A stretch of 64,000 bases of DNA from Croceimicrobium hydrocarbonivorans (GTDB lineage: Bacteria; Bacteroidota; Bacteroidia; Flavobacteriales; Schleiferiaceae). The stretch is taken from positions 2,797,501-2,861,500 of the forward strand of contig NZ_CP060139.1 of assembly GCF_014524565.1 (NCBI RefSeq), written 5' to 3'. This document shows, one piece after another, positions 21,972-36,520 of this stretch. Numbering within the stretch: the first letter of the stretch is position 1; each line of letters starts with the position of its first letter. A program made the position numbers and the translations under genes. The notes under the pieces were generated by a model. The model was not told where the DNA came from and ran no database searches. It saw nothing but the letters and a program-made list of their open reading frames with translations.

Positions 21972-24377
21972 ATGAAAAAGACTATTAAACACGCAACGGT
22001 AATCGGCTCCGGAATTATGGGAAGCCAGATTGCTTGTCATTTGGCCAATATTGGTGTGCGTGTGCTTTTGCTCGACATTGTTCCGCGCGAATTAAACGAA
22101 AGAGAAGAAAAAGCAGGCCTTAGTTTGGAAGACAAGGCCGTGCGCAATCGGATTGTAAATGAAAGCCTGACTAAGGCAGTGAAGATGAATCCGGCGCCCC
22201 TTTTTGATAAGGCTTATGCCTCTCGTATTGAAACCGGTAACCTCGATGATGATTTGGCCAAGATCGCCAAAACCGATTGGATCATCGAAGTAGTAGTGGA
22301 GCGCTTGGATATCAAGCAAAGCTTATTTGAAAAGGTAGAGCAGTACCGCAAGCCGGGAACCTTTATCTCTTCCAATACCAGTGGAATTCCAATTCACCTG
22401 ATGACGGAAGGTCGCAGTGAGGATTTTCAGAAATTCTTCCTGGGTACTCACTTCTTTAATCCGCCCCGTTATTTGGAATTATTAGAGATTATTCCAACTC
22501 CAAAGACGGATCCGGAAGTAGTAGATTTCTTCATGCACTATGGCGATCGCTATCTAGGGAAAACCACCGTGCTTTGTAAGGATACTCCCGCTTTTATCGC
22601 CAACCGGGTAGGCATTTTCGCCATTATGGATCTCTTCCATAAGGTGGGAGAAATGGGCCTTAGCGTAGAAGATATCGATAAGCTCACCGGACCGTTGATT
22701 GGTCGTCCAAAATCAGCCACCTTCCGTACAGCGGATGTTGTAGGTTTAGATACCTTAATTCACGTGGCCAATGGCTTAGCTCAAGCGGTTCCTCATGATG
22801 AGAAGCAAGAGGTATTTAAACTTCCGGGCTTCTTGCAAAAAATGCAGGAAAACAATTGGTTAGGTTCTAAAACCGGTCAAGGTTTTTATAAGAAAGTAAA
22901 AGGTGAGGATGGTAAGTCGGAAATCTTATCTCTCGATTTAGATACCTTAGAATACATCTCTCAAAAGCGCAGTAAATTCGCTACCCTCGAGCTCACTAAA
23001 ACCATCGATGATGTGCGTGAGCGCTGGAAGGTGCTGATTGGTGGCAAGGATAAGGCAGGCGAATTTTACCGTCGTTCTGTAGCCGGAGTTATGGCTTATG
23101 CAGCTAATCGTATTCCAGAAATTGCCGATGATCTATTCCGCATTGATCAAGGTATGCGGGCTGGTTTTGGCTGGAAACATGGTCCCTTTGAAATTTGGGA
23201 TGCCATTGGTTTCGAGAAGGGAATTAAACTGATTGAAGCCGAAGGATTGAGCCTGGCTCCCTGGGTGAAAGAAATGCAAGCTGCCGGACATACTTCTTTC
23301 TATAGCGTGAAGGAAGGACAGGGCTACTATTACAATATTGGCGATAAGAGCTATCAGGCTTTACCTGGTGGAAAGAGCTTTATCGTATTGGATCATATCC
23401 GCCCCAGCAAAACAGTTTGGAAGAATAAGGAATGCGCCATTGAAGACCTTGGCGATGGAATCCTCAATATTGAGTTCCGCTCCAAAATGAATTCCTTGGG
23501 CAGCGGAGTTTTAGCCGGTATCAATAAAGGTATTGAACTTGCCGAGCAGGATTATCAAGGGGTGGTGATCTCCAACCAAGGGGATAATTTCTCTGTGGGT
23601 GCTAACCTGGCGATGATCTTTATGATGGCCATTGAGCAGGAATATGACGAACTAAACTTTGCGATTAAGTACTTCCAGGATACTATGATGCGGGTGCGCT
23701 ATTCTTCCATCCCTGTGGTGGTGGCTCCTCATCAAATGACTTTGGGAGGCGGTTGTGAGATGTCGCTTCACGCGGATGCGGTACAAGCTGCAGCTGAAAC
23801 CTATATCGGATTGGTTGAGTTTGGAGTAGGTGTAATCCCTGGCGGTGGTGGTACCAAAGAATTGACCCGCAGAGCAGGACTTCGCTACGTGAAAGATGAT
23901 ATTGAAACCAATGCCTATCGTGAGAATTTATTCAGAATCGGTCAGGCGCAGGTAGCTAAGTCGGCGAAAGAAGCCTTTGATATGGGCTTGTTTGTAGAGG
24001 GTCGGGATGGCATTTCTATGAACCGCCATCGTTTGATTGCCGATGCCAAGGAACGTGCTCTGGCTTTAGCGGAAACCGGCTATCAAATGCCTATCCGCGA
24101 ACGCGATATTAAGGTATTAGGTCGCCAGGCCTTAGGAATGTTTACCGTAGGTGCCCACACCATGTTAGAAGGGGGCTATATCACCGAGCATGAAAAGAAA
24201 ATGGTAGAGAAACTCGCTTACGTTATGAGTGGCGGAGACCTTTCGGAACCCACTTTCGTATCAGAGCAATATCTCCTCGACCTTGAGCGTGAAGCCTTCC
24301 TAAGCCTCTGCACCGAAAAGAAAACTCTGGAGCGCATCCAGCACATGTTGAAGACTGGGAAGCCGTTGAGAAACTAG
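21972..24377 (+). CDS. fadN: 3-hydroxyacyl-CoA dehydrogenase / enoyl-CoA hydratase, FadN type
   Basis: The 801-residue bifunctional enzyme runs the middle steps of beta-oxidation. The dehydrogenase domain comes first (NAD-binding GSGIMGSQIACHLANIGV from about residue 12; FFLGTHFFNPPRYLELLEIIPT near 155; C-terminal HAD helices about 190-440). The crotonase domain follows (about 485-720: QGDNFSVGANL oxyanion segment, GGGCEMSLHADAV, FGVGVIPGGGGTKEL). This order is the FadN arrangement and the reverse of FadB/FadJ. Stop at 24375, then a heptamer array and a four-helix-bundle gene before fadA. Regulated in all likelihood by the MarR encoded just upstream. Confidence 0.92.
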   Translation: MKKTIKHATVIGSGIMGSQIACHLANIGVRVLLLDIVPRELNEREEKAGLSLEDKAVRNRIVNESLTKAVKMNPAPLFDKAYASRIETGNLDDDLAKIAKTDWIIEVVVERLDIKQSLFEKVEQYRKPGTFISSNTSGIPIHLMTEGRSEDFQKFFLGTHFFNPPRYLELLEIIPTPKTDPEVVDFFMHYGDRYLGKTTVLCKDTPAFIANRVGIFAIMDLFHKVGEMGLSVEDIDKLTGPLIGRPKSATFRTADVVGLDTLIHVANGLAQAVPHDEKQEVFKLPGFLQKMQENNWLGSKTGQGFYKKVKGEDGKSEILSLDLDTLEYISQKRSKFATLELTKTIDDVRERWKVLIGGKDKAGEFYRRSVAGVMAYAANRIPEIADDLFRIDQGMRAGFGWKHGPFEIWDAIGFEKGIKLIEAEGLSLAPWVKEMQAAGHTSFYSVKEGQGYYYNIGDKSYQALPGGKSFIVLDHIRPSKTVWKNKECAIEDLGDGILNIEFRSKMNSLGSGVLAGINKGIELAEQDYQGVVISNQGDNFSVGANLAMIFMMAIEQEYDELNFAIKYFQDTMMRVRYSSIPVVVAPHQMTLGGGCEMSLHADAVQAAAETYIGLVEFGVGVIPGGGGTKELTRRAGLRYVKDDIETNAYRENLFRIGQAQVAKSAKEAFDMGLFVEGRDGISMNRHRLIADAKERALALAETGYQMPIRERDIKVLGRQALGMFTVGAHTMLEGGYITEHEKKMVEKLAYVMSGGDLSEPTFVSEQYLLDLEREAFLSLCTEKKTLERIQHMLKTGKPLRN

Positions 24378-24454
24378 ATGTGAGATGTGAGATGTGAGAT
24401 GTGAGATGTGAGATGTGAGATGTGAGAATTGAGAATTGAGAATTGAGATGTGAG
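24378..24454 (+). repeat. Left heptamer array, 11 tandem units
   Basis: Immediately after the fadN stop come seven copies of ATGTGAG, three of AATTGAG and one further ATGTGAG, 77 bases without interruption. The four-helix-bundle ATG is at 24457. Complementary units lie on the other side of that gene at 24819-24846. Confidence 0.9.
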
Positions 24455-24456
24455 AG

Positions 24457-24816
24457 ATGCACAAGTACAAGGATTTGAAAATATGGCAAAGAGCGATGGG
24501 GATTTCCGAAAAGGTTTATGAACTAAGCCAAGGTTTTCCTGATGAAGAAAGATTTGGCCTGAAATCTCAGATTCGTCGTGCTGTAGTTTCTATTCCATCA
24601 AACATTGCTGAAGGGGCAGGAAGAAAAACAGATATGGATTTCAGTAGGTTTTTGGATATGGCAAATGGCTCTATCAATGAAGTTGAAACTCAATTGCTAT
24701 TATCTCAGAGATTAAATTTTCTTGAGGAGTCGGAATCCTTTAATTGGATACTTTCAGAATTAGATGAATTGCAGAAAATGATATTCAGTTTCCAATCCAA
24801 ATTAAAGACCCAGTGA
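24457..24816 (+). CDS. Four-helix-bundle protein (23S rRNA intervening-sequence type)
   Basis: The 119-residue protein opens KYKDLKIWQRAM and contains FGLKSQIRRAVVSIPSNIAEGAGR, the signature of the TIGR02436/S23 four-helix-bundle family. Its members occur within rRNA intervening sequences and, as relatives (Avd), in diversity-generating retroelements. It is a lone gene between fadN and fadA, bordered by inverted heptamer arrays, and lacks obvious metabolic meaning there. Base composition is A-richer and codon use less even than in its fad neighbours. The family's molecular activity is unclear; binding of nucleic acid is suspected. It looks like a mobile cassette passenger. Confidence 0.9.
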   Translation: MHKYKDLKIWQRAMGISEKVYELSQGFPDEERFGLKSQIRRAVVSIPSNIAEGAGRKTDMDFSRFLDMANGSINEVETQLLLSQRLNFLEESESFNWILSELDELQKMIFSFQSKLKTQ

Positions 24817-24818
24817 TT

Positions 24819-24846
24819 CTCATATCTCAATTCTCACATCTCAAAT
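24819..24846 (-). repeat. Right heptamer array, inverted, 4 units
   Basis: CTCATAT, CTCAATT, CTCACAT and CTCAAAT are four contiguous heptamers. Two are exact reverse complements of the AATTGAG and ATGTGAG units of the left array, and the other two differ from them by one base or so. They begin 2 bases after the four-helix-bundle stop. Confidence 0.85.
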
Positions 24847-24883
24847 CTGCCTTAATAAAATATAGAACTAAAAACAATATTAG

Positions 24884-26059
24884 ATGAACGCATACATAGT
24901 AGCCGCAAAACGTACTGCCGTAGGTAAAGCTCCTCGGGGTGTATTTCGATTTACGCGTCCGGATAATTTGGCGGGCACCTTAATTCGGGAAATCCTGAAG
25001 GATATGCCCCAATTGGATAAGGACCGCATTGACGATGTGATTGTGGGGAATGCCATGCCGGAGGCAGAACAAGGAATGAATATGGGGCGCCTAGTCTCTT
25101 TAATGGGATTGGATACAGTGAAGGTTCCCGGGGCTACCGTAAATCGTTGGTGTGCCAGTGGATTGGAGTCGATTGCCATTGCCTCTGCTAAGATTCACGC
25201 CGGTATTGCCGATTGCATTATCGCCGGTGGAGTAGAAAGCATGAGCTATGTTCCCATGGGGGGATATAAAGTGGTGCCTAGCTATGAGCTGGCCAAGCAA
25301 CATGCCGACTATTACAATAATATGGGGCTTACTGCCGAAGCGGTAGCCCAACAGTATAAGGTGTCGCGCGAGGATCAAGATCAGTTTGGATACGAATCCC
25401 ACATGAAGGCATTGAATGCCATCGCAGAAGGTCGCTTTAAAGACGATATTGTACCTATCGAAGTCGAGGAAATCTACTTGGATGAAAATGAAAAACGTCA
25501 GGTGCGCACCTATACAGTGGATACAGATGAAGGTCCTCGCAAGGGAACTAATGTAGAAGCCATGGCAAAATTGCGCCCGGTATTCGCGGCGCGTGGTTCT
25601 GTAACTGCTGGTAACTCTTCACAGATGAGTGATGGGGCGGCCTTTGTGGTAGTGATGAGCGAGAAGATGGTAAATGAATTAGGATTGAAGCCCATAGCTC
25701 GCTTATTAAACTATCAGGTGGTAGGCGTTGAGCCGCGAGTTATGGGTATTGGTCCGGTAGAGGCTATTCCTAAGGCCTTGAAGGCAGCAGGCATGAAGAA
25801 GGATGATATCGATTTGATCGAATTGAATGAAGCTTTTGCTTCCCAGTCCTTAGCGGTGATCCGCGAGTTGGACTTAGATCCATCCAAAGTAAATGTAAAT
25901 GGTGGGGCCATTGCGATGGGGCACCCCTTAGGATGTACCGGTGCTAAATTATCGGTGCAGATCTTTAATGAATTGAAAAAACGTGATCAGAAATACGGCA
26001 TGGTAACCATGTGCGTAGGAGAAGGTCAGGGTGCCGCGGGCATCTATGAACTTTTATAG
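24884..26059 (+). CDS. fadA: Acetyl-CoA C-acyltransferase (3-ketoacyl-CoA thiolase)
   Basis: The 391-residue thiolase has the acylated nucleophile Cys90 in VNRWCASGLESI, the GGVESMS region, the histidine of NGGAIAMGHPLGCTGAK and the second catalytic cysteine in MVTMCVGEGQGAAGIYELL at the C-terminus. It carries out the last step of beta-oxidation, releasing acetyl-CoA. It is the partner of FadN, from which it is separated only by the four-helix-bundle cassette, and it ends at a strong terminator. All catalytic residues are present. Confidence 0.93.
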   Translation: MNAYIVAAKRTAVGKAPRGVFRFTRPDNLAGTLIREILKDMPQLDKDRIDDVIVGNAMPEAEQGMNMGRLVSLMGLDTVKVPGATVNRWCASGLESIAIASAKIHAGIADCIIAGGVESMSYVPMGGYKVVPSYELAKQHADYYNNMGLTAEAVAQQYKVSREDQDQFGYESHMKALNAIAEGRFKDDIVPIEVEEIYLDENEKRQVRTYTVDTDEGPRKGTNVEAMAKLRPVFAARGSVTAGNSSQMSDGAAFVVVMSEKMVNELGLKPIARLLNYQVVGVEPRVMGIGPVEAIPKALKAAGMKKDDIDLIELNEAFASQSLAVIRELDLDPSKVNVNGGAIAMGHPLGCTGAKLSVQIFNELKKRDQKYGMVTMCVGEGQGAAGIYELL

Positions 26060-26088
26060 AACCAAGAAGAATACGCTGATTTGTAGGA

Positions 26089-26118
26089 AACCCGGGCTTG
26101 AGATACCCGGGTTTTTTT
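26089..26118 (+). terminator. Intrinsic terminator after fadA
   Basis: AACCCGGG at 26089-26096 pairs perfectly with CCCGGGTT at 26106-26113, followed by a run of seven T. It closes the marR-fadN-fadA operon. Confidence 0.9.
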
Positions 26119-26205
26119 GTGGATAATGAAAAATATTAAGGAAGGGCTGTCCCTTTTGAAGGCTCAGATCCGTATTAGCTAATACAAGAATCAAAATCTC
26201 TTACA

Positions 26206-27738
26206 ATGAAGAAATTAGTATTAGCTCTATTAAGCGTTTTCAGCTTAAGCGTGGCTGCCCAATCTACCCTTACGGTTACCGTAACGGACAATGGTGTACC
26301 CGCACATGGCGTGAACGTATTTTACTATAGTTCGGATGCCAAGTTCTTTGCCAATGGCGGAGCAGCTGGACCAACTATGGAAAACTTTGATTACCCTCTC
26401 TTTACCAGTGGTAATGGTGTAGCCACCTTTAACCTTTGGAATGTGAGCGTAGGTGATACCGTGTTTTATGCAACCAAAGATTGCAATGGTAATGTGATCT
26501 GGGGTGGCAGTGTTTTAACTTCTGCTGGAGCCAATATTACCGGTACTTTAGCTTTAAGCTGTATGCCTGGTGATTGCGATGCGATTTTCAGAACGGATTC
26601 TTTCCCTGGTGGAATGATCCTAGTGGAAGCGTATCCTCTAATGGAATACAATCAAACCAGCTTACCTACTAATGGTCAAAGTATGTGGACCGTAAATGGA
26701 ACTAGTTCTACTGGTTTCCCGGCTGCAAACTATGACAGTATTTCATTTTTCGGTGCTGTAAGTCCGTTTACCCTTACCTACTCTCGTGTAGATAGTGTAT
26801 GTTCTCCAATCACTTATACCTATTCCGGAAACGGCGGTGGTGGTACTACCGTAACTTGTAATGCAGATTTTACTGCTGACACTGTTGGTGCAAGTCCTGC
26901 TGGTTATACTATGATCTATCGTGATGCATCTACTACCAATGGTGCTATTATTAGCTACGATTGGCAGTTTGGTGACGGAACTACTGCTTCTGGTCCAAAC
27001 GCGATTGCTCCTACTCATACTTACAGCGTTACTGGTCCTTATGCCGTATGTTTAAGTATTACTTCGGTATTAGGAAACGATACCTGTACTTCTACTTTCT
27101 GCGATAGTGTGTATGTAGGCGGAAACACCGGTGGCGGTGGTACCCCAATTATGTGTAATGCATACTATGCAGTGGACAGCGTAAACTCTGGTTTATTCCA
27201 AAATCAATTGATTATCTGGGAAAGTTCTTACTCTAACGGAACCATTTTCAGCTACAGCTGGAACTTCGGTGACGGTACTGTAATCAACACTCAGTATCCT
27301 AGTCATACCTATGCCAACACTGGTGTATACAATGTGTGCTTAACCATTATGGCGGTAGACGCTCAAGGTGATTCATGCATGAGTACATTCTGCGACTCTA
27401 TTGGATTCGACTCAAATGGTAACCTGGTATACAAAGGTCAAACTGGTGGATTTACCATCAATGTAATTGATCCTGCAACCGTTGGATTAGAAGAAAACTT
27501 ACTTGATGAAAGTTTAGCTATGTATCCTAACCCTGCTAATGAGAAGGTGACCCTGAGCTGGGATCCTGCTTTGAAGGTGGAAAATGTATCGGTATTATCC
27601 TTAGCCGGTCAAGAAGTGCTTAGTGTTAGTCCTTCCGAAGCAGCTAGCTTAGAGATCAACGATCTTCCCCGCGGAGCTTACCTGGTGCGTGTTCATGCCG
27701 CAACCGCCAGCAAAACGCTTCGATTGATCGTACACTAA
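26206..27738 (+). CDS. PKD-repeat T9SS secreted protein 1
   Basis: The 510-residue protein has a signal peptide ending near VAAQ (about residue 19), a carboxypeptidase-regulatory-like N-domain (about 20-115: TVTVTDNGVPAHGVNVFYYSS), a second beta domain, then two PKD domains with the signature YDWQFGDGTT and YSWNFGDGTV (about 220-310 and 318-405). The C-terminus (about 430-510: MYPNPANEKVTLSWD, LPRGAYLVRV, ASKTLRLIVH) is a type A T9SS sorting domain. Conserved cysteine pairs (CNADF..CDS) recur in each PKD unit. Probable surface adhesin or matrix protein. First of three tandem paralogs. Confidence 0.82.
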   Translation: MKKLVLALLSVFSLSVAAQSTLTVTVTDNGVPAHGVNVFYYSSDAKFFANGGAAGPTMENFDYPLFTSGNGVATFNLWNVSVGDTVFYATKDCNGNVIWGGSVLTSAGANITGTLALSCMPGDCDAIFRTDSFPGGMILVEAYPLMEYNQTSLPTNGQSMWTVNGTSSTGFPAANYDSISFFGAVSPFTLTYSRVDSVCSPITYTYSGNGGGGTTVTCNADFTADTVGASPAGYTMIYRDASTTNGAIISYDWQFGDGTTASGPNAIAPTHTYSVTGPYAVCLSITSVLGNDTCTSTFCDSVYVGGNTGGGGTPIMCNAYYAVDSVNSGLFQNQLIIWESSYSNGTIFSYSWNFGDGTVINTQYPSHTYANTGVYNVCLTIMAVDAQGDSCMSTFCDSIGFDSNGNLVYKGQTGGFTINVIDPATVGLEENLLDESLAMYPNPANEKVTLSWDPALKVENVSVLSLAGQEVLSVSPSEAASLEINDLPRGAYLVRVHAATASKTLRLIVH

Positions 27739-27761
27739 AATCATCAGCCCTTGGAAAGAAG

Positions 27762-27789
27762 GCGTCCCGGGATAACCGGGGCGCTTTTT
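27762..27789 (+). terminator. Intrinsic terminator after PKD protein 1
   Basis: GCGTCCCGG at 27762-27770 pairs with CCGGGGCGC at 27776-27784 (one T-G wobble) over GATAA, followed by TTTTT. It separates paralogs 1 and 2. Confidence 0.85.
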
Positions 27790-27804
27790 CGCTAAAAAAA
27801 ACTT

Positions 27805-27812
27805 TACGTTTG
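27805..27812 (+). promoter_or_regulatory. -7 type promoter element before PKD protein 2
   Basis: TACGTTTG matches the Bacteroidetes TAnnTTTG element, 20 bases before the start codon at 27833 and just after the preceding terminator. No clear TTG was found at the usual distance. Confidence 0.35.
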
Positions 27813-27832
27813 ATTAATCTAAATCCCTGACT

Positions 27833-29632
27833 ATGAAAAGTTTATTTCTCTATTTCTTTTGTTTGATAGGTTTGGCCTCCTTCGCTCAAACTAATCTTTC
27901 AATAACAGTCTCTCAAAATGGTACACCTGTCGAAGGTGTTTCGGTGTTTTTATTTACGGATAAGCAAGAAATATTTCCTTTGGTAATACCTAGAGCTGTT
28001 TTAGGTAAATATGATGCTGTTACTTATTCTGATGCGAATGGACAGGTAGTTTTTTCCTTTGGGAATATGTCTGTTGGCGATACTGTTTATTGGGCCTCCC
28101 ACGATTGCCAGCGAGGTATGGTAACTGATTTTGGAGTGGTAGGATCAAGCTCATCAATGACAGGAGTCTTGGATTTACCTTGTTTGCCCCAAGATTGTGA
28201 CACTCATATTAGGATTGACACATTGGTGTCAGGAACTGTTTTATTCCAATTTATCCCCTTTTTAGAATACAGTCAAACGGGATTAACCAGTGGATCGCAA
28301 AGTCAAATTACGGTGAATGGCATTAGTAGGACAGGTACTGTGCAGTCTAATTATGATTCTGCAAGCTTCAGTCCAGGTAGCTTATCAGCACCGATCAATG
28401 TACAATACACTAGAGCTCAGAATCAGTGCTCAATTATTGATAATGATCCTCAGGTTTACCTAACTACCTATTTTACCGCTGACCCTGTTGGTCCATCCGG
28501 TTCTGGATACACTATGGCTTTTAATGATTCATCTTTTAGTAATGGTGCATTCAGAAGGTATGAATGGGATTTTGGTGATGGAACCACCCTGAACGGTAGA
28601 TACGACTCCGATCCACAACATACCTATGCTTCAACCGGAACCTATCGAGTGCGATTAGGAGTTACTAGTATAAGTGCATCTGGTTGGGGGGCAATGAAGG
28701 AATGGGTAACCAATGTTGTGGTAGGGCCTGGAGGCGGAAGTGTTAAGCGCGGCTTTCTGTGCGAAGTTCAGCAAATTTCGAGTGCTGGTATGCCTGGTAC
28801 AAACATGTATGATATTTATGCTAGTCCTTTCACCACTGGAAATCTGTTTTTTGCAGAATGGGCCATTGAAGATGAAAACGGAGTGATTCACAATATCTCC
28901 GATAATAAGGGGGGTGGACACACTAGCTTCAGTTGGTCTCAAGATGGTGTTTATTCGGTATGTTACACGTTTAAATCCGCTTTTAGAGGCGATACCTGTC
29001 AGCTAACATACTGCGATAGTATCACGGTTTCAAGACAAGCGCAATGTCAAGCCTGGTACAGGGTAGATTCTTTGAATTCAATTGCAGCGCCAAATCAGAT
29101 TGTAATTAGAGAACTCTCCCAATCCAATGGCGATATCTTGCAATATCGTTGGGATTTTGGTGATGGTACCATTAAAACCAACCAATTCCCCAGTCATACT
29201 TATAGCCAAAATGGTGTATATGAGGTATGCTTGGAGATTACAGCCGTCGATTCCTCTCGTATGGATACTTGCATAAGTACTTATTGCGATTCCATCGGTT
29301 TTGATGCCAGTGGAAATATGGTGTTTAAAGATCAGTTAGCGGGATTTACCATTAATGTGGTTGACCCCGCTTCTATTGGCCTGGATGAAAACCTGCTGGA
29401 GGAAAGTTTGAAGATGTATCCAAATCCGGCTACAGAGAAAGTAACTTTAAGCTGGGATCCTGCCCTGAAGGTGGAAAGGGTTTCGGTGTTCTCCTTAGGA
29501 GGTCTGGAATTGCTTAGCGTAAAACCTTATGAGGCATCCAATATGGAGATTAAGGATCTTCCTAAAGGCGCTTACTTAGTGCGAATTCAAGCGAAAGCGG
29601 CCAGTAAAACCCTTCGATTAATTGTGAATTAA
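27833..29632 (+). CDS. PKD-repeat T9SS secreted protein 2
   Basis: This 599-residue paralog starts with a signal peptide ending SFAQ (about 19) and the same regulatory-like N-domain (SITVSQNGTPVEGVSVFLFT). Domain order: N-domain, a beta domain, PKD (YEWDFGDGTTLNGRY, about 250-270), a diverged beta region (about 300-400), PKD (YRWDFGDGTIKTNQF, about 440), and the T9SS sorting domain at the end (MYPNPATEKVTLSWD, LPKGAYLVRIQ, KTLRLIVN). The C-terminal 90 residues are close to those of paralog 1, whereas the middle part has diverged. The middle PKD lacks a clean DGD core. Function as for paralog 1. Confidence 0.8.
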   Translation: MKSLFLYFFCLIGLASFAQTNLSITVSQNGTPVEGVSVFLFTDKQEIFPLVIPRAVLGKYDAVTYSDANGQVVFSFGNMSVGDTVYWASHDCQRGMVTDFGVVGSSSSMTGVLDLPCLPQDCDTHIRIDTLVSGTVLFQFIPFLEYSQTGLTSGSQSQITVNGISRTGTVQSNYDSASFSPGSLSAPINVQYTRAQNQCSIIDNDPQVYLTTYFTADPVGPSGSGYTMAFNDSSFSNGAFRRYEWDFGDGTTLNGRYDSDPQHTYASTGTYRVRLGVTSISASGWGAMKEWVTNVVVGPGGGSVKRGFLCEVQQISSAGMPGTNMYDIYASPFTTGNLFFAEWAIEDENGVIHNISDNKGGGHTSFSWSQDGVYSVCYTFKSAFRGDTCQLTYCDSITVSRQAQCQAWYRVDSLNSIAAPNQIVIRELSQSNGDILQYRWDFGDGTIKTNQFPSHTYSQNGVYEVCLEITAVDSSRMDTCISTYCDSIGFDASGNMVFKDQLAGFTINVVDPASIGLDENLLEESLKMYPNPATEKVTLSWDPALKVERVSVFSLGGLELLSVKPYEASNMEIKDLPKGAYLVRIQAKAASKTLRLIVN

Positions 29633-29648
29633 AATATTAAAGCAGGAG

Positions 29649-29674
29649 TGAAAGCGCCTAAGAAAACGCTTTCA
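29649..29674 (+). terminator. Hairpin after PKD protein 2 (weak terminator)
   Basis: TGAAAGCG at 29649-29656 and CGCTTTCA at 29667-29674 pair perfectly over a 10-base A-rich loop. No run of T follows, so termination would be weak or the hairpin may protect the 3' end. Confidence 0.45.
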
Positions 29675-29738
29675 AAATGAATCTATAAGTAACTGTAAGA
29701 TTTAGGATATCAACTAATTAGATTCAAATTAACCTCTT

Positions 29739-31853
29739 ATGAAAAATTATCTGCTCTTATTAATTGCTTTGATGAGCTTTTCGCTCTCGGCTCAAAATTT
29801 TACTGTTACCGTAAATGAGAATGGTTCGGCAGCTGAAGGGGTGGCCGTGTTTTTTTTCGAAACCCCCGGGCAGTTTTATATTGATGGCTATAATCAACCT
29901 CCTCGCATTTACGACTTTTATGCCCATCGATTTACCGACGTAAATGGACAGGTTACTATATATACTCCATTTAGCGCAAATCCGGGTGATACGGTTTACT
30001 ATGCAGCCAAAGATTGCAATGGAACTCTTTATTACGATTTCTTTATTCGTCAATCAGGTGGTACTACTAATCCGTCCAGTGGTAGTTTAAATATAAGCTG
30101 TAAACCAGGGGATTGCGACTTTGTGCTGGTATCTAATGTATATTCAAATAGCGTTTCAATCGGAACTTATTTCTTAAGACATTTCAGTAATACCAGTCTT
30201 ACCTCAGATACTAATGAGGTTTGGACCGTAAATGGTCAAGCTTTCAGGCCGGCCGAATTTGGCAATGGGGGACATGATACTTTAACCGGAATTAGTACCA
30301 GTCAATTTAGCTTACCATTAACAATAAGTTACTCCAGGCAAGAAGGAGTTTGCAGTCCGGAAACAACGGTTGTGAATAATGGCACTGTTGTACCGGTGCA
30401 ATGTAATGTATCCTTTAGTTCACAACTATTCGGCCCGGGAACTCAGGGATTTGGATTACAGTTGAGCAACCACTCTAGCACCAATGGCACCATTATTAAT
30501 AGTCATTGGGATTTTGGCGATAGCAGTAGTGTAGATGTTAATCATTTAAATCCGATAAGTCATGTTTATGCTGATACTGGATATTATAAGGTTTGTTTAA
30601 CCATTACCTCTGTATTAGGTTCGGATACTTGCGTTTCAACTGCCTGTCATTCTAATATTTATGTAGGCTTGATCCATCATTGTAATGCAGGTTTTTATCT
30701 AGATACAGTTGTGGATGGCAATCCTGGTTACAGTGCGACAATTGTTAATACCTCCAGTAGCAATGGTACAATCATTGGCATGAGATTCTTTGGAACGGGA
30801 AGCAACTTTTCTGCACCTAATTTGGTCCCAACTATTCAAAGTTGGTTTGCGTCTCAAGGAAATTACTACCGTTGTTTGGAGATAACTTCGGTAATGGGGA
30901 CCGATACTTGCGTGTCGGTGTACTGTGATACTTTAGCTGTTTTTCGTGGAGGTGGCTCTGGCCCTTCTCCAATCAACTGTATGGCTAGCTTTACCTATGA
31001 CACCTTGGGTGGACGTGCGATTGGCTATGATATCAGATTCAATAGTTCCTCCGCTACAAACGGGACAGTTATAAATTACCAGTGGGATTTTGGAGATGGT
31101 AATACACTACAAGGAGGCAATGTGTTGAACCCATTATATACCTATTCTTTTCCAGGAACTTATCAGGTATGTCTAACCATTACTTCTGTACTGGGTAATG
31201 ATACCTGTGTTAATACCTATTGCGATAGTGCTGTTGTGGTGCCTAATTTTGGTAATTCCGGAGCCGTAAATTGCTATGCGAATTTTGTGGTAGATACCTT
31301 TAATTCAGGTAGATTCCAAAATCAATTAATAGTTTGGGAACAGTCTATTTCCAATGGGAATATTGTAAGCTATTCCTGGGACTTTGGTGATGGTACCGTA
31401 ATTAATAGTCGATATCCATCCCATACTTACGCCAATAATGGTGTGTACTATGTTTGTCTTAGCATCATTGCTAGCAATCCCGCTGGCGACTCCTGCACTA
31501 GTGTATTCTGTGATTCTATCGGTTATGATAGCACGGGAGCACTCATATATAAAGGACAGGCTGGTTTTACGATCAATATTATCGATCCATCAACCATTGG
31601 TTTAGAGGAAGAAACCCTTTTAAATGAGGTGCAGATGTATCCTAACCCAGCAGCAGAAAAACTTATATTGAGCTGGAAGCCAGCTTTGAAAGTAGAAACC
31701 GTATCTCTGATTTCTTTAACAGGACAGGAAGTAATGCGGATTTTACCCGGAGAGAAACATGAATTAGAAATTAGGGATATCCCTAGCGGAGCTTATTTGG
31801 TTCGTTTAAATACTCAAAGGGCAACAAAAACCTTGCGACTAATTGTACAATAA
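29739..31853 (+). CDS. PKD-repeat T9SS secreted protein 3
   Basis: The 704-residue paralog is the largest. After a signal peptide (about 1-19) and the regulatory-like N-domain come four PKD-type units. Their cores read SHWDFGDSSS, a diverged FFGTGSNF unit, YQWDFGDGNT and YSWDFGDGTV. Each is bounded by paired cysteines such as CNVSF..CLTITSVLGSDTC. The protein ends in a type A T9SS sorting domain (MYPNPAAEKLILSWK, IPSGAYLVRL, TKTLRLIVQ). The extra PKD units relative to paralog 1 imply repeat expansion within the family. The next gene encodes an ECF sigma factor. Confidence 0.8.
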   Translation: MKNYLLLLIALMSFSLSAQNFTVTVNENGSAAEGVAVFFFETPGQFYIDGYNQPPRIYDFYAHRFTDVNGQVTIYTPFSANPGDTVYYAAKDCNGTLYYDFFIRQSGGTTNPSSGSLNISCKPGDCDFVLVSNVYSNSVSIGTYFLRHFSNTSLTSDTNEVWTVNGQAFRPAEFGNGGHDTLTGISTSQFSLPLTISYSRQEGVCSPETTVVNNGTVVPVQCNVSFSSQLFGPGTQGFGLQLSNHSSTNGTIINSHWDFGDSSSVDVNHLNPISHVYADTGYYKVCLTITSVLGSDTCVSTACHSNIYVGLIHHCNAGFYLDTVVDGNPGYSATIVNTSSSNGTIIGMRFFGTGSNFSAPNLVPTIQSWFASQGNYYRCLEITSVMGTDTCVSVYCDTLAVFRGGGSGPSPINCMASFTYDTLGGRAIGYDIRFNSSSATNGTVINYQWDFGDGNTLQGGNVLNPLYTYSFPGTYQVCLTITSVLGNDTCVNTYCDSAVVVPNFGNSGAVNCYANFVVDTFNSGRFQNQLIVWEQSISNGNIVSYSWDFGDGTVINSRYPSHTYANNGVYYVCLSIIASNPAGDSCTSVFCDSIGYDSTGALIYKGQAGFTINIIDPSTIGLEEETLLNEVQMYPNPAAEKLILSWKPALKVETVSLISLTGQEVMRILPGEKHELEIRDIPSGAYLVRLNTQRATKTLRLIVQ

Positions 31854-31865
31854 GCAGACAGATTA

Positions 31866-31908
31866 AGGAATTTGGCAGGATGATAATTACATCATTCTGC
31901 CAAATCCT
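31866..31908 (+). other. Long hairpin between PKD protein 3 and the sigma factor gene
   Basis: The arm from 31866 (AGGAATTTGGCAGGATGAT) folds on ATCATTCTGCCAAATCCT at 31891-31908 with a 6-base loop and only one bulge and one wobble. No T-tract follows. The sigma factor start codon is 10 bases downstream, so it could be a leaky terminator or could control translation of the sigma factor. Confidence 0.6.
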
Positions 31909-31917
31909 AAATACTTA

Positions 31918-32487
31918 ATGAATAGGCCAGTACATAAAATAATAAAGCAGTGTCGAAAGAATGATCGGCAAGCGCAGTTTGATCTGTATCATCACTGCTT
32001 TGACTATTTATTGGCTATTTGTTTCCGCTATAAGAAGCAGAGAGAGGACGCAGTTTCCTTATTAAACGACGCCTTTCTGAAAATTTTATTGAACCTGGAT
32101 TCCTACGATGAGAAGCAAGATTTCTTCCCTTGGATTTCCAGCATAACGGTGCGAACCGCTATTGATGAATACCGACGTGAAAAGCGGTATAAAGAGCAAA
32201 CGGATTTGAAAGAAACCGATGCTGAATTGGAAGAACCCCATTTAAACCCCGGACTGTTTAAGGTGGTCGACGAAATGTCGGCCGAAGAAGTAAAGGAGTT
32301 GATATATCACCTGCCAGAACCGGAACGAATGGTCTTTGTCCTTTTCGAATGGGAAGGATATCAGCATAGGGAAATAGCTTCCAAACTCGAATGCTCTGAA
32401 CGGAGCTCTAAGCGCTATTTAAATAAAGCGAAAGAGTTGCTTAAGAAAGAACTCAGCCATAAACAAGCATTAAAAAAAGTGATCTGA
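31918..32487 (+). CDS. ECF-type sigma factor
   Basis: The 189-residue protein has region 2 at about 15-90 (YLLAICFRYKKQREDAVSLLNDAFLKILLNL, then FFPWISSITVRTAIDEYRRE) and region 4 at about 125-185 (LPEPERMVFVLFEWEGYQHREIASKLECSERSSKRYLNKAKELLKKEL). No region 3 is present, as expected for ECF sigma factors, which direct RNA polymerase to extracytoplasmic-stress or surface genes. The stop codon overlaps the ATG of the next gene by one base, and that gene looks like an anti-sigma or sensor, so the two are a coupled unit. Confidence 0.88.
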   Translation: MNRPVHKIIKQCRKNDRQAQFDLYHHCFDYLLAICFRYKKQREDAVSLLNDAFLKILLNLDSYDEKQDFFPWISSITVRTAIDEYRREKRYKEQTDLKETDAELEEPHLNPGLFKVVDEMSAEEVKELIYHLPEPERMVFVLFEWEGYQHREIASKLECSERSSKRYLNKAKELLKKELSHKQALKKVI

Positions 32488-34019
32488 TGGCCGATTGGGA
32501 TAAATTAAAAAATAAAATTGGTGCAAATGCCGATGGTCCGACCCCTGCGGACTGGGAGGCTATGCAGGCTAAAATTGCAGCCCAGCCGGCTTTAGCTCCG
32601 GTTGCCTCAAAGAATTCTTGGTTTAGCTGGCTGGTTGCCGGATTAATTGGCTTAATGCTGGGCATGGGTTCCTTGTATTTCTGGCCTCGCTCTTCAGGGG
32701 AGAGTGGAGTTGGGAATAGTGAGTCTAGCCTTGAAGCTCCATTACCAGAGAATTCAAATCAAACTACTGTGGGAATACCTGATGCCGACCGAGATGTAGA
32801 AAGGCAGGAAGGACCAAGCATGGGATCGTCTGAATTAGAGATTGATCCAAACCTGAAGGAAGAAGGACAGGAGTCAGGTTATTCCGCAGTAGCTTTTACT
32901 AATGATTCGGAAGCGAATATCATAGAAGCCGATCAAGAGGAAGAGGCAGTGTCTACCCTCAATACGCAAGAGGGAAATGCTCTCAATACTACTTTTGAGG
33001 CTGATAGAAGCAGGGCTGCCGAAAGAACCTTTGAAAATAGGGGTCCCATAAATCAGCAGGCAGAAGAAATGGCCGAAGGCAGTGAACCAATTGCCACGGA
33101 CTTTAATGATCAAGGAGAATTAAATTCTGGAGCAACAATTGGAAAACCAGAAAATAATTCTGCTGCTTCAGATCAAAACTCCGAATTGGATATGCCTAAT
33201 CAAAGTGATTCTTCGCAGGAAGAAGAGACGACTGATGAGATAAAGGCTTCTACTGAAGCAGAGGCTGGAACTAATGAAGAACCCAAGCTTGCTCCTGAAG
33301 AAGAGGAAGATGAGTTTATTCGCAAGGAAAGCGGTTTTGAATTGAATCGCATAAGCCTATTCGCTGGATTACAAAATGATTTGAAATCCAATTCACTTTG
33401 GGCCTATGGTTCTGCAGCCGAACTACAATGGCAAAAGCGTCATCAATTCTTTAGTGTCGGTCTGGGTTATTATAGAGTAGAACAGCCGTATAAACTAAAT
33501 CTGCCCTCTGAAGGAATGCGAATTGATAGTATTTGGCAAACAAATATTCAAGATCGTGAGGTGATTGAAGTGAGTCGCCAATGGGTAATTGATTCCTTTC
33601 AGGCAGGCCACTATGTCTATGACACTACACGTAGAATCGTTAGTGACACTACAATTAATTTAAGAGTAGATACAAACCAATACCGAACGAATATCGTAAA
33701 CCAAAGAGTAAGGGCTTATTATTATGCCGAGCTTCCACTATTGTATGGTTACCAAATGGGTAAAGGCAATTGGCAGTTTCAACTGGCCGGAGGGCTGGCA
33801 TTACAACAGGTTTTGGCCTATTCCGAAGATGAAAGCGGTAGTCAATCCCTATTTGGAATGAGCGCCTTATTACAACCTGGTGCGAGCTGGCGATTTAGTG
33901 ATCGTTGGTCAGTTCTAGGACGCGTACAGCTTCGCTATCCCCTGCAACAAGATTTTGTGCTGTACGACAGGAATGAATTAAGGTATTCTTTCCAGTTGGG
34001 TGTATCCTACCGCTGGTAA
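32487..34019 (+). CDS. Predicted envelope-spanning anti-sigma / outer-membrane barrel protein
   Basis: The 510 residues divide into four parts. Residues 1-45 are a soluble N-terminus (MADWDKLKNKIGANADGPTP) carrying PADWEAMQAKI, a short helix typical of Bacteroidetes ECF-linked proteins. Residues 46-67 are one clear membrane span (WFSWLVAGLIGLMLGMGSLYF). Residues 70-280 are a long, acidic, Ser/Glu/Asn-rich stretch with no cysteine. From about 285 on, amphipathic strands form an outer-membrane beta-barrel-like domain ending in VSYRW. No cleavable signal is seen. It probably holds the sigma factor at the inner membrane while its barrel sits in the outer membrane. This topology is inferred. Confidence 0.65.
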   Translation: MADWDKLKNKIGANADGPTPADWEAMQAKIAAQPALAPVASKNSWFSWLVAGLIGLMLGMGSLYFWPRSSGESGVGNSESSLEAPLPENSNQTTVGIPDADRDVERQEGPSMGSSELEIDPNLKEEGQESGYSAVAFTNDSEANIIEADQEEEAVSTLNTQEGNALNTTFEADRSRAAERTFENRGPINQQAEEMAEGSEPIATDFNDQGELNSGATIGKPENNSAASDQNSELDMPNQSDSSQEEETTDEIKASTEAEAGTNEEPKLAPEEEEDEFIRKESGFELNRISLFAGLQNDLKSNSLWAYGSAAELQWQKRHQFFSVGLGYYRVEQPYKLNLPSEGMRIDSIWQTNIQDREVIEVSRQWVIDSFQAGHYVYDTTRRIVSDTTINLRVDTNQYRTNIVNQRVRAYYYAELPLLYGYQMGKGNWQFQLAGGLALQQVLAYSEDESGSQSLFGMSALLQPGASWRFSDRWSVLGRVQLRYPLQQDFVLYDRNELRYSFQLGVSYRW

Positions 34020-34055
34020 GGATTTGTAGATTACACAAAGGATACTCTGCAATGG

Positions 34056-34091
34056 AGGTGCTTCTTGTAAAAGGGGCACCTTTATTTTTTT
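34056..34091 (+). terminator. Weak intrinsic terminator after the sigma/anti-sigma pair
   Basis: AGGTGC at 34056-34061 and GCACCT at 34076-34081 form a 6-bp stem with a 14-base loop, followed by a T-rich run (TTTATTTTTTT). Confidence 0.6.
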
Positions 34092-34109
34092 CAAAAAGCT
34101 CGATTATAA

Positions 34110-34125
34110 ACTATGCATGCATAGT
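34110..34125. promoter_or_regulatory. Candidate MarR operator before the acyl-CoA dehydrogenase gene
   Basis: ACTATGCATGCATAGT is a perfect 16-base palindrome with the same 12-base core as the site before marR at 21468. It occupies the position where a -33 element would lie, 9 bases before the -7 element at 34135. Confidence 0.65.
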
Positions 34126-34134
34126 AAATTTTAG

Positions 34135-34142
34135 TATTTTTG
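34135..34142 (+). promoter_or_regulatory. -7 promoter element of the acyl-CoA dehydrogenase gene
   Basis: TATTTTTG fits TAnnTTTG, 25 bases before the ATG at 34167. No TTG is found upstream at the expected distance because the palindrome occupies that place. This arrangement would allow repression by a bound regulator. Confidence 0.5.
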
Positions 34143-34166
34143 GGCAAATCCAAAAAAATTCTCGCA

Positions 34167-35969
34167 ATGGCAGATGTCGATACTAAGTCCTTTTTAAAGG
34201 GTGGCGAATTTCTAATTCGTGAGGTAAGCAGTGATGAAGTCTTTATTCCTGAAGAGTTTTCAGAAGAACAGAAGATGATGGCACAGGCCACTTCTGACTT
34301 TATTGATAAGGAAGTAGCTCCGGAGCGCGAGCGCTTTGAAAGCAAGGACTATAAGTTTACCGAAGACATCATGAAAAAGGCCGGCCAATTAGGTCTATTG
34401 GGAATTAGTGTTCCCGAAGAATATGGCGGCCTGGGAATGGATTTTAATACTTCCATGTTAGTTTGCGATCGTATTTCGGGTATATCAGGTTCCTTGTCCA
34501 CTGCCTACGGTGCGCATACCGGAATCGGTACCCTGCCGATTCTACTTTATGGAACGGAGGAGCAAAAGCAGAAGTATCTGCCAGGACTAGCTACCGGCGA
34601 ATTAATGGGGGCCTATTGCCTTACAGAGCCTGGTGCCGGATCGGATGCTAATAGCGGTAAAACCAAAGCCGAATTAAGTGCTGATGGTAAGAGCTATAAA
34701 ATCAACGGACAGAAAATTTGGATTTCAAACGCAGGGTTTGCGAATGTCTTCACGGTATTTGCCCGCATCGAAGACGACAAATATTTAACCGCCTTTATTG
34801 TAGAGAAGGGTAATCCCGGAATGACCTTCGGGGAAGAAGAGAATAAACTGGGTATTCGTGCTAGCTCCACCCGCCAGGTATTCTTTAATGACTGTGAAGT
34901 AGCCGTAGAAGATATGTTGGGAGAGCGCAATGGTGGATTTAAAATCGCCATGAACGCTCTTAATTATGGCCGTATCAAATTATCAGTTGCTTGTTTGGAT
35001 GCCGCCCGTCGGGTTACTACTCACGCGGTATCCTATGCAAACGAGCGCAAGCAATTCGGAACTTCAATATCCACTTTTGGCGCTATCCAGCAGAAGCTGG
35101 CCGATATGGCCACTCGTACTTGGGTTTCAGAATCGGCGACCTACCGTGCCGGTCAGGATGTAGAAAATAATATTGCTCGCTTAATGGAGGCCGGAATGGA
35201 TCAAGGCGAAGCGAAATTGAAAGGTGTAGAGGAGTTTGCTATTGAATGTGCCATATTAAAAGTATTGGGATCTGAGGCGGGAAGTTTTGTTTCGGATGAA
35301 GGCCTGCAGATCTATGGTGGTATGGGCTATAGTGCCGATGCCCCATTAGAAGCCGCCTATCGCGATATGCGCATTGCTCGTATCTACGAAGGTACCAATG
35401 AGATCAATCGCCTGCATTCGGTAGCGATGTTGCTTAAAAAGGCCTTAAAAGGAGAACTCGACTTAATGAGTCCTGCCATGGCTGTTGCTAATGAACTAAT
35501 GGAGATTCCCTCTTTCGATACACCTGATGAGGATATCCTTTTTGCAGAAGAGAAAGAGAGCATTGCTAAATTGAAAAAATCCATTTTAATGGTGGCCGGT
35601 AAAGCCGTAGAGACCTTCGGGATGGATCTGGAAGCAGAGCAGGAGATTATTATGAATGCAGCCGATATGATTATCGAAGTATATGCTGCGGAGTCTGCTT
35701 TGTTGAGAGCAGAGAAATTAGCGAAACAAAAAGGCGAGGAAGCGGTAAAAGTGGAAATCTCCATGGCACGTTTATACTTGCATTGGGCCCAGGAAGCTGT
35801 GGCCAATAAAGGACGTGAAGCTATTTACAGCTTTATTGAAGGAGATGAGCAACGTATGATGTTGATCGGTTTAAAGCGCTTTACTAAGCCAGCTAACCCA
35901 GTAAATGTTAAAGCATTACGTCGCGAAATCGCCGCTAAGCTTATCGATTCGAATAGGTACCCTTTCTAG
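34167..35969 (+). CDS. Acyl-CoA dehydrogenase
   Basis: The ATG at 34167 gives 600 residues. A TTG-start extension to 34140 would lie on the promoter. The flavoenzyme introduces the first double bond in beta-oxidation. N-terminal helical domain (about 35-150: LGLLGISVPEEYGGLGMDF), middle beta domain (about 160-260: GAYCLTEPGAGSDANSGKTKAEL), C-terminal helical domain, and the catalytic-base segment IYEGTNEINRLHSVAMLLK (Glu). An additional C-terminal extension of about 150 residues follows, as in the long-chain members of the family. It completes the fad operon functionally though encoded 8 kb away. Shares a palindromic operator with marR. Confidence 0.9.
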   Translation: MADVDTKSFLKGGEFLIREVSSDEVFIPEEFSEEQKMMAQATSDFIDKEVAPERERFESKDYKFTEDIMKKAGQLGLLGISVPEEYGGLGMDFNTSMLVCDRISGISGSLSTAYGAHTGIGTLPILLYGTEEQKQKYLPGLATGELMGAYCLTEPGAGSDANSGKTKAELSADGKSYKINGQKIWISNAGFANVFTVFARIEDDKYLTAFIVEKGNPGMTFGEEENKLGIRASSTRQVFFNDCEVAVEDMLGERNGGFKIAMNALNYGRIKLSVACLDAARRVTTHAVSYANERKQFGTSISTFGAIQQKLADMATRTWVSESATYRAGQDVENNIARLMEAGMDQGEAKLKGVEEFAIECAILKVLGSEAGSFVSDEGLQIYGGMGYSADAPLEAAYRDMRIARIYEGTNEINRLHSVAMLLKKALKGELDLMSPAMAVANELMEIPSFDTPDEDILFAEEKESIAKLKKSILMVAGKAVETFGMDLEAEQEIIMNAADMIIEVYAAESALLRAEKLAKQKGEEAVKVEISMARLYLHWAQEAVANKGREAIYSFIEGDEQRMMLIGLKRFTKPANPVNVKALRREIAAKLIDSNRYPF

Positions 35970-36100: not shown

Positions 36101-36520
36101 ATGGAAAAGAGAGTTTGTCCAAATTGTGGCGGAGAAGAGTCCACTAAAAGTGGGGTCGTAAAAGGTCGACAACGCTACCGCTGTAAGAACTGCAAATACC
36201 ATTTTACCGTTTCTCGATTAGGTAAAAAGATCGATGACTATTACGTTACCAAGGCCTTACAACTTTATTTAGAGGGTCTTTCCTACCGAGAGATTGAGCG
36301 CATTTTAGGCGTTTCTCATGTGAGTGTAATTAATTGGGTTCGGCAACATAAAGTGAAACGTCCCATGAATTCGAATTACCATCCTACCTACCGAATTTTA
36401 ACCCATGATGAACTGCTTAAGTTTTACCAGAATGCTGATAATTTGAAAGGAGCAGGGATGGTAGTAACAGAATTGGGTGATAAATATATGCTCATACGCT
36501 GGGAGCGTTTCAGAGACTGA
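36101..36520 (+). CDS. InsA-like zinc-ribbon/HTH DNA-binding protein (no transposase domain)
   Basis: The 139 residues contain a zinc ribbon (residues 5-30: CPNCGGEESTKSG then RYRCKNCKYHF) and a helix-turn-helix (about 52-85: LYLEGLSYREIERILGVSHVSVINWVRQHKVK). This is the plan of InsA, the DNA-binding half of IS1 transposases. A tail of about 50 residues of unknown type follows. No DDE domain or second frame is present, and no terminal inverted repeats were seen around it. Its position at the head of an acetate-uptake and activation locus suggests a domesticated InsA domain serving as a transcription factor. Confidence 0.7.
   Translation: MEKRVCPNCGGEESTKSGVVKGRQRYRCKNCKYHFTVSRLGKKIDDYYVTKALQLYLEGLSYREIERILGVSHVSVINWVRQHKVKRPMNSNYHPTYRILTHDELLKFYQNADNLKGAGMVVTELGDKYMLIRWERFRD

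Follow-up and report, generated by a model that had tools for sequence, protein, structure and literature searches.

In systems of the SusC/FecA-FecR-FecI type, an outer-membrane protein controls a cytoplasmic ECF sigma factor via a TonB-dependent transducer and a separate FecR-type anti-sigma factor. Another class of regulators, the Dma proteins, has been described in the gut bacteria Bacteroides and Phocaeicola in work published from 2022 to 2026 (PMC13088901; PMC9308784). According to the accessible parts of these papers, a Dma protein begins with a sigma-binding domain, continues through a transmembrane helix and a long disordered tether, and ends in a barrel; the genes adjoin ECF21 sigma genes and are restricted to Bacteroidota (PMC13088901). 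In Bacteroides thetaiotaomicron there are Dma1, Dma2 and Dma3 with the ECF21 sigma factors Das1 and Das2 (Pardue et al. PNAS 2024, as cited in PMC13088901). The published relatives are reported to be anti-sigma factors (PMC13088901; PMC9308784). As the signal, the authors of the Dma2 study hypothesise an unknown glycan (PMC13088901), and the authors of the Phocaeicola vulgatus study propose envelope stress (PMC9308784).

Here we describe a locus of Croceimicrobium hydrocarbonivorans (Flavobacteriales, Schleiferiaceae). The window, that is, the whole stretch of DNA that was analysed, is 64,000 nucleotides long, and the features discussed below lie on its forward strand unless stated otherwise. 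We propose that the locus encodes a sensor of the Dma type together with a sigma factor that drives a dedicated operon of surface proteins of the type IX secretion system (T9SS), its own gene included, and we put the probability of this reading at roughly three in four. Its observed part is the gene order, the domain order, the linkage of the genes and a promoter-like site. We found no report of a Dma-type circuit with T9SS cargo in the open-licence literature of PubMed Central. A dedicated T9SS surface-protein operon under a Dma-type switch looks new; the sensor design itself is known. The preliminary description of this DNA had proposed a single-chain sensor, an idea that holds in outline. 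A novel architecture is ruled out because the class is already published: the accessible description of the Dma family (PMC13088901) matches, as does the P. vulgatus pair (PMC9308784).

The three B. thetaiotaomicron proteins share with the window protein both the domain order and the adjacent ECF sigma gene, as far as the accessible text describes them (PMC13088901). Their surroundings differ. The operon partner of Dma2 is a DUF4943 protein, whereas the partners in the window are T9SS-exported PKD proteins with a promoter of their own; Dma1, unlike the window operon, acts through nigD1 and affects vesiculation and PULs; and Dma3 has a sigma domain within the same chain, whereas the sigma factor of the window is a separate gene (PMC13088901). 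The P. vulgatus EcfO/anti-sigma pair (M0N98_03760-61) is like the window pair in an anti-sigma factor predicted to cross the periplasm and to end in an outer-membrane barrel, in its upstream sigma gene and in its small regulon. It differs in a regulon with nigD and LPS-glycan functions and in its induction by an antibacterial toxin, and the accessible part of the paper reports no T9SS cargo (PMC9308784). In Porphyromonas gingivalis, the PorA-PorXY-SigP pathway likewise leads from a T9SS CTD surface protein to an ECF sigma factor, but it runs through a two-component system and controls genes of the T9SS machinery, with no cargo operon described in the text available (PMC7712824). The SM6 promoters of Flavobacterium psychrophilum concern T9SS components, and that paper, in its accessible part, reports no dedicated cargo operon with a barrel anti-sigma factor (PMC9723704).

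The sigma gene (31918..32487) encodes 189 amino acids that match Pfam Sigma70_r2 (8e-10) and Sigma70_r4_2 (2.9e-13), and TIGR02937 of NCBIfam above its cut-off. The next gene (32487-34019) encodes the 510-residue Dma-type protein and overlaps the sigma gene by 1 nt (TGATG). Coordinates, overlap and profile matches all agree with the ECF sigma gene and overlapping second reading frame that had been claimed. A search of relatives, which the preliminary description had suggested, recovered the same pair in the same domain order: each of the 20 distinct members of the family collected first, the window's among them, has an ECF sigma gene directly upstream of its Dma-type gene. Of 20 further listed loci, 19 have an overlap of 1 or 4 nt between sigma and Dma-type genes, and one has an overlap of 8 nt. 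Conserved in all 20 members first collected, the gene pair and its layout exceed chance. Unlike the SusC/FecA-FecR-FecI systems, which require a transducer and a FecR-type anti-sigma factor, the operon holds neither: the Pfam and NCBIfam matches of its five genes include no FecR or TonB-receptor family (for the sigma factor, among the best 25 of 92 NCBIfam matches). This is in line with the earlier suggestion of a single envelope-spanning chain that works without a SusC/FecR partner. We call the protein Dma-type, a putative assignment, on the strength of its architecture and gene order.

Residues 1-44 of the Dma-type protein (32487..32618) are predicted to be cytoplasmic and presumed to bind the sigma factor; a profile covers them, and a low-confidence model folds them into two short helices. 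They are followed by the predicted inner-membrane span at residues 45-66 (32619..32684). There is only one strong hydrophobic segment (Kyte-Doolittle 1.64 at residues 45-63; the second-best reaches 0.41), and the low-confidence model places a helix at 45-64. The single span thus stands as described before, but its position is better given as about 45-66 than as 46-67. Residues 67-275 (32685..33311) form a tether, recognised by its composition and low pLDDT. It comprises about 210-220 residues, 25% of them acidic, 6% basic and 80% disorder-promoting, and the entire protein, which ends in YRW, contains no cysteine; the acidic, cysteine-free linker of about 200 residues had been read correctly. 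All 20 members, window included, have the span and a long linker (159-266 residues). In a random-coil estimate based on polymer scaling, a 210-residue tether is about as long as the periplasm is wide, which makes a continuous link plausible. Hence the earlier remark that the linker is long enough to cross the periplasm is plausible too, although such an estimate is no proof of mechanical signalling.

The profile also matches proteins of about 240 residues that have no barrel and are encoded beside ECF sigma genes (L059, L061-L063, L065). Because these proteins share the module at ECF sigma genes, the comparison suggests that the module is the sigma-binding part. The distances between N-termini correlate with those between sigma factors beyond what the barrel accounts for, albeit weakly (partial r 0.43, p 0.001). 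The barrel-less proteins carry the N-terminal module together with the span; the class with barrels may have arisen from them, or they may be truncated versions of it. The genome encodes a further Dma-type protein in which the N-terminal module is repeated three times in tandem ahead of the span, with one adjacent sigma gene (minus strand, L058 2143-695, G000:C1 about 1906894-1908342; also L060). The triple module recurs in the relative G016, and orthologues in other genera (L068-L071) show one copy. Such a protein could hold several sigma molecules simultaneously.

For the C-terminal part, residues 276-510 (33312..34016), an outer-membrane beta-barrel is predicted, and we infer that it sits in the outer membrane. 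Pfam PF13568, an outer-membrane barrel family, matches the window protein weakly (E 0.0054, 17.3 bits, cut-off 27). At E up to 1 it matches 14 of the 20 scanned family members, window included, with a best value of 2.9e-14. Structure prediction of 32487-34019, as proposed earlier, was partly successful: the full-length model, built from four sequences, is poor (mean pLDDT 35.3), and the model of the C-terminal 235 residues is moderate (52.8, the other four models reaching 26-37). In the latter the strand regions mostly have pLDDT 45-84, the periplasmic turns are short, and one large outer loop separates strands 3 and 4. We read the barrel as having 8 membrane strands, a count that comes from this one model and whose top VIA match is tied with autotransporter barrels of other sizes. 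In Foldseek the top solved match is NspA (E 0.018, probability 1.00), OmpA also has probability 1.00, and no solved structure scores E below 0.001. In VIA-align, OpcA and NalP share the top place, OpcA with Z 12.2 and an rmsd of 3.9 over 159 residues, and many barrels follow. A single-sequence search of solved structures gave nothing better than OprG (E 1.4). A profile search of solved structures returned a designed repeat protein (0.0011) and lysostaphin (0.0016), both rejected as aligned over the low-complexity part. The barrel claimed for residues 285-510 thus stands as a prediction, through the model, the fold matches and PF13568 in relatives, but its start lies at about 276/284. The large predicted external loop 2 (residues ~333-410, 33483..33716, pLDDT <50) holds W366 and G374, two of the family's five invariant columns.

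Upstream of the sigma gene lie three genes for PKD proteins. PKD1 (26206..27738, 510 aa) has a signal peptide, recognised by eye, two PKD domains and a Por_Secre_tail in Pfam and NCBIfam, and its orthologue occupies the same place in relatives. PKD2 (27833..29632, 599 aa) and PKD3 (29739..31853, 704 aa) are paralogues of PKD1, with 251/493 and 253/505 identical residues, respectively. The relative L002 (Flavobacteriales bacterium UBA7878) has only one PKD gene and lacks PKD2. All three proteins have the C-terminal sorting domain (Por_Secre_tail/TIGR04183) above cut-off, and the genome encodes SprA_N and thus a T9SS, so that the PKD proteins are presumably exported by it.

Adjacency of such a cargo gene to the pair is unlikely to be accidental at any one locus. 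The genome has 148 Por_Secre_tail matches, and the 140 above cut-off, among roughly 3,500 genes (an estimate), give a chance adjacency of a few percent per locus. Among the matches listed, a gene with a T9SS tail lies immediately upstream on the same strand in 27 of 49 Dma loci of the host's family, window included (L089 is counted as linked by Pfam). The 27 comprise the window, 20 of 23 further loci, 6 of 10 more and none of the 15 added last. Linkage at every Dma locus of the family is ruled out by these last 15, again among the matches listed. The other 22 listed loci, which belong mostly to other paralogue clades, lack a T9SS gene directly upstream, two of them (L097, L167) being cut off by a contig end. 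Such a gene lies two genes upstream in L165 and upstream on the opposite strand in L170. In another Dma group a T9SS-tail gene is found directly downstream (L162 914-3316 in G022; L169 1473-3866 in G021). All 23 upstream proteins checked by Pfam, 20 of the 26 outside the window and the window's three, carry PKD_4 and Por_Secre_tail over cut-off.

T9SS linkage tracks sigma clades. It is present in 20 of 21 loci of the window's sigma clade, in both rows of the L089/L092 branch and in five of six of the L155 group, where the sixth row, L097, is labelled 'no' and its upstream gene lies beyond the contig end. Mapped on a quick tree of 57 sigma rows, the linkage label needs 4 changes, compared with a mean of 19 in 500 shuffles, a difference to which near relatives contribute; the tree leaves out the 15 last-added loci. 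L004 (a second copy of L003 from one assembly) and repeat fetches of the same loci were dropped from the rows. The PfkB-linked paralogue group (e.g. L094, L154, L160, L161) has no T9SS linkage. This group is a second conserved module of the family: a PfkB-like gene, an ECF sigma gene and a Dma-type gene, mostly followed by a gene for a protein of about 370 aa that looks like a lipoprotein by eye (L094, L154, L160, L161, L165, L166, L171-L178, which include most of the last-added loci). Outside the host's family, none of 23 sigma/Dma loci has a same-strand T9SS-tail gene directly upstream, a count obtained with a tail profile trained on the host's family and in genomes that may or may not encode a T9SS; L149 has a divergent T9SS gene upstream. 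Loci left out of this count are L131, L135, L136, L139 and L140 (no sigma gene) and L150 and L153 (no Dma match).

About 28 nt before PKD1 lies an ECF-type promoter-like site, TGTCCC-N17-CGTATTA (26148..26177), that is unique in the genome and conserved in relatives. Its consensus, TGTC[C/A]C-N17-CGTA[T/G]TA, stands about 28-50 nt ahead of most cargo genes of the window type. Its CGT box at -10 makes it look like a promoter of the ECF kind. The exact pattern occurs once in the 4.04-Mb genome, before PKD1, and its reversed control does not occur. With one mismatch allowed there are 2 matches, as opposed to 9 for the reversed control, and near-matches are uninformative because the control exceeds the pattern. 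The 27-base form is found once in the window, where 0.09 are expected and 8 of 100 shuffles have at least one. The exact pattern is matched 25 times across the 88 family genomes and its reversed control 7 times. The 19 genomes in which a single-sequence search finds a homologue contain 19 of these matches. Sixteen of them stand ahead of an ORF with a T9SS tail: 14 at the sigma locus, with one site of G016 counted twice, at both ends of one assembly, and two at other places (L101, L121). L114, L119 and L123 make up the rest. In the remaining 69 family genomes none of the six exact sites precedes a T9SS-tail ORF.

Scored with the tested locus left out of training, 23 of the 25 regions ahead of cargo genes reach p<=0.03 (500 mononucleotide shuffles); the training set retains close relatives, and the pattern was first read by eye from the same regions. 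The sites at the loci are partly circular because the pattern was read from them; the uniqueness in the genome and the two trans sites are not. At L086 and L091 the match falls within the longest ORF, by 31 and 22 nt respectively, and counts as upstream only if translation starts at a later codon. L092 has no site at spacing 17 (p 0.216) and one at spacing 16 by eye, and none was found before the outer T9SS gene of L081 (p 0.662). Exact sites away from the sigma gene are found at L121 (G030), L101 (G004) and L123 (G031), the T9SS tail of L123 being recognised by eye and not by profile; by sequence they are candidate trans targets of the sigma factor. A promoter common to Dma loci generally is ruled out: TGTC[AC]C-N17-CGTA is missing from most other groups. 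It precedes none of 22 sigma genes from outside the family, none of 4 in the PfkB clade and none of 7 in the L155 group, and it is absent before 9 of 10 cargo genes in the second batch of loci, the tenth (L157) belonging to the window's clade. The three cargo genes of L089, outside that clade, have weaker but significant forms of the site (p 0.000-0.008). Together with the conserved linkage, the conserved promoter-like site backs the earlier idea that the PKD/T9SS proteins are plausible targets of the sigma factor.

No promoter site of their own was found before PKD2, PKD3 or the sigma gene of the window, which argues for one autoregulated operon. Predicted RNA hairpins lie in its gaps. One follows PKD1 (27757..27789; fold z -4.37 for the whole gap), and a strong one separates PKD3 from the sigma gene (31867..31907; z -6.87). 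Among 16 cargo-sigma gaps folded, 12 have z of -2.5 or lower and four have no hairpin. These hairpins probably keep regulator levels below cargo levels. Downstream of the Dma-type gene and before fadE, a terminator-like hairpin of 16 pairs with a T-run (34051..34091) appears in a consensus scan that finds 11 such sites in the region against 7.3 in shuffles.

The circuit that we propose would work as follows. The barrel would lie in the outer membrane, the tether would cross the periplasm and, after one inner-membrane helix, the N-terminus would reach the cytoplasm, where it would keep the ECF sigma factor inactive. A change at the surface of the barrel or in the surrounding outer membrane would free the sigma factor, which would then transcribe the operon from TGTCCC-N17-CGTATTA: up to three PKD surface proteins, then the sigma gene, then the anti-sigma gene, with the hairpins between cargo and sigma genes lowering the regulator relative to the cargo. 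The outer-membrane barrel, the binding and release of the sigma factor and the transcription of the operon are the predicted steps. The putative regulon is a single operon whose promoter is defined and whose product lies at the surface, so that ligand, relay and output can be tested together. The circuit connects type IX secretion with envelope signalling through one chain, and it suggests that individual T9SS cargo proteins can be under control of their own.

What the barrel would respond to can be read in more than one way. It may report damage to the outer membrane or a failure of barrel assembly, with the PKD coat as the response and no contact between cargo and sensor. In P. vulgatus, a toxin that damages the envelope induces a pair with this layout, loss of the anti-sigma factor alters only 15 genes, and EcfO of Bacteroides fragilis answers oxidative stress (accessible part of PMC9308784, the last as cited there). 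The operon, however, contains no stress gene, and for a general response to stress the one exact site in the genome would be a narrow output. We give outer-membrane stress somewhat less than an even chance.

A similar weight, again short of even, goes to regulated proteolysis, in which a signal would have the chain cut near the inner membrane and the tether would be a protease target instead of a mechanical link. This concerns the mechanism and is compatible with either a stress or a cargo signal. Such proteolysis is established, as general knowledge, for many ECF anti-sigma factors, and the linker is long and disordered.

A sharper form of the proposed circuit makes the PKD protein the ligand of the external loop: its binding would keep (or free) the sigma factor and so adjust the supply of the coat. 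Cargo and sigma genes remain adjacent despite deep divergence of the sigma factors and varied neighbourhoods, the large loop carries its two invariant columns, and a T9SS CTD protein upstream of an ECF sigma factor has a precedent in PorA-PorXY-SigP (accessible part of PMC7712824). Once the sigma factor is corrected for, cargo distances also correlate with barrel distances (partial r 0.54, p 0.0015, 13 loci, with L084 left out as near-identical to L085 and others as too divergent). This correlation is not specific, however, because the sorting tail, which is expected to be cut off after export, correlates equally with the barrel (r 0.57, p 0.001). Moreover, membership in a regulon does not imply being its ligand. 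We consider occupancy by cargo unlikely, and slightly less likely still that the barrel gauges its own secreted product, sensing the arrival of PKD protein and relaying it through one polypeptide to a sigma factor whose sole exact site in the genome is that of this product. If true, a single protein would give feedback on type IX secretion, or on the density of the surface coat, and a cargo ligand would explain how the cell knows that its secreted coat has arrived at the surface.

That the pair regulates fatty-acid oxidation, as its position between fadA and fadE might indicate, is highly improbable. The window and 12 of 23 other loci have fadA on the upstream side, fadE on the downstream side, or both, but cargo, sigma and Dma-type genes stay together in loci with and without these neighbours, and the operon's own promoter and the terminator-like site before fadE delimit the unit.

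A single-sequence search finds a homologue of the Dma-type protein in 19 of 88 family genomes, its own included. Profile matches, many of them partial, occur in at least 118 of 393 genomes of an order sample and in 68 of 392 of a phylum sample.

Genes of a beta-oxidation cluster (FadJ-like, FadA and FadE; 21972-35969) surround the circuit in the window. Between the FadJ-like gene and FadA lies an ORF of 119 aa (24457-24816), found by eye at the same place in L002, L003 and L005, which may be a four-helix-bundle protein of the 23S rRNA intervening-sequence type. Another ORF of 139 aa (36101-36520) has a zinc ribbon and HTH and an IS1-like match below cut-off (NF033558, E 3.8e-22). It is kept in position in L002, L003 and L005 with 81-98% identity and is perhaps a domesticated piece of a transposase.
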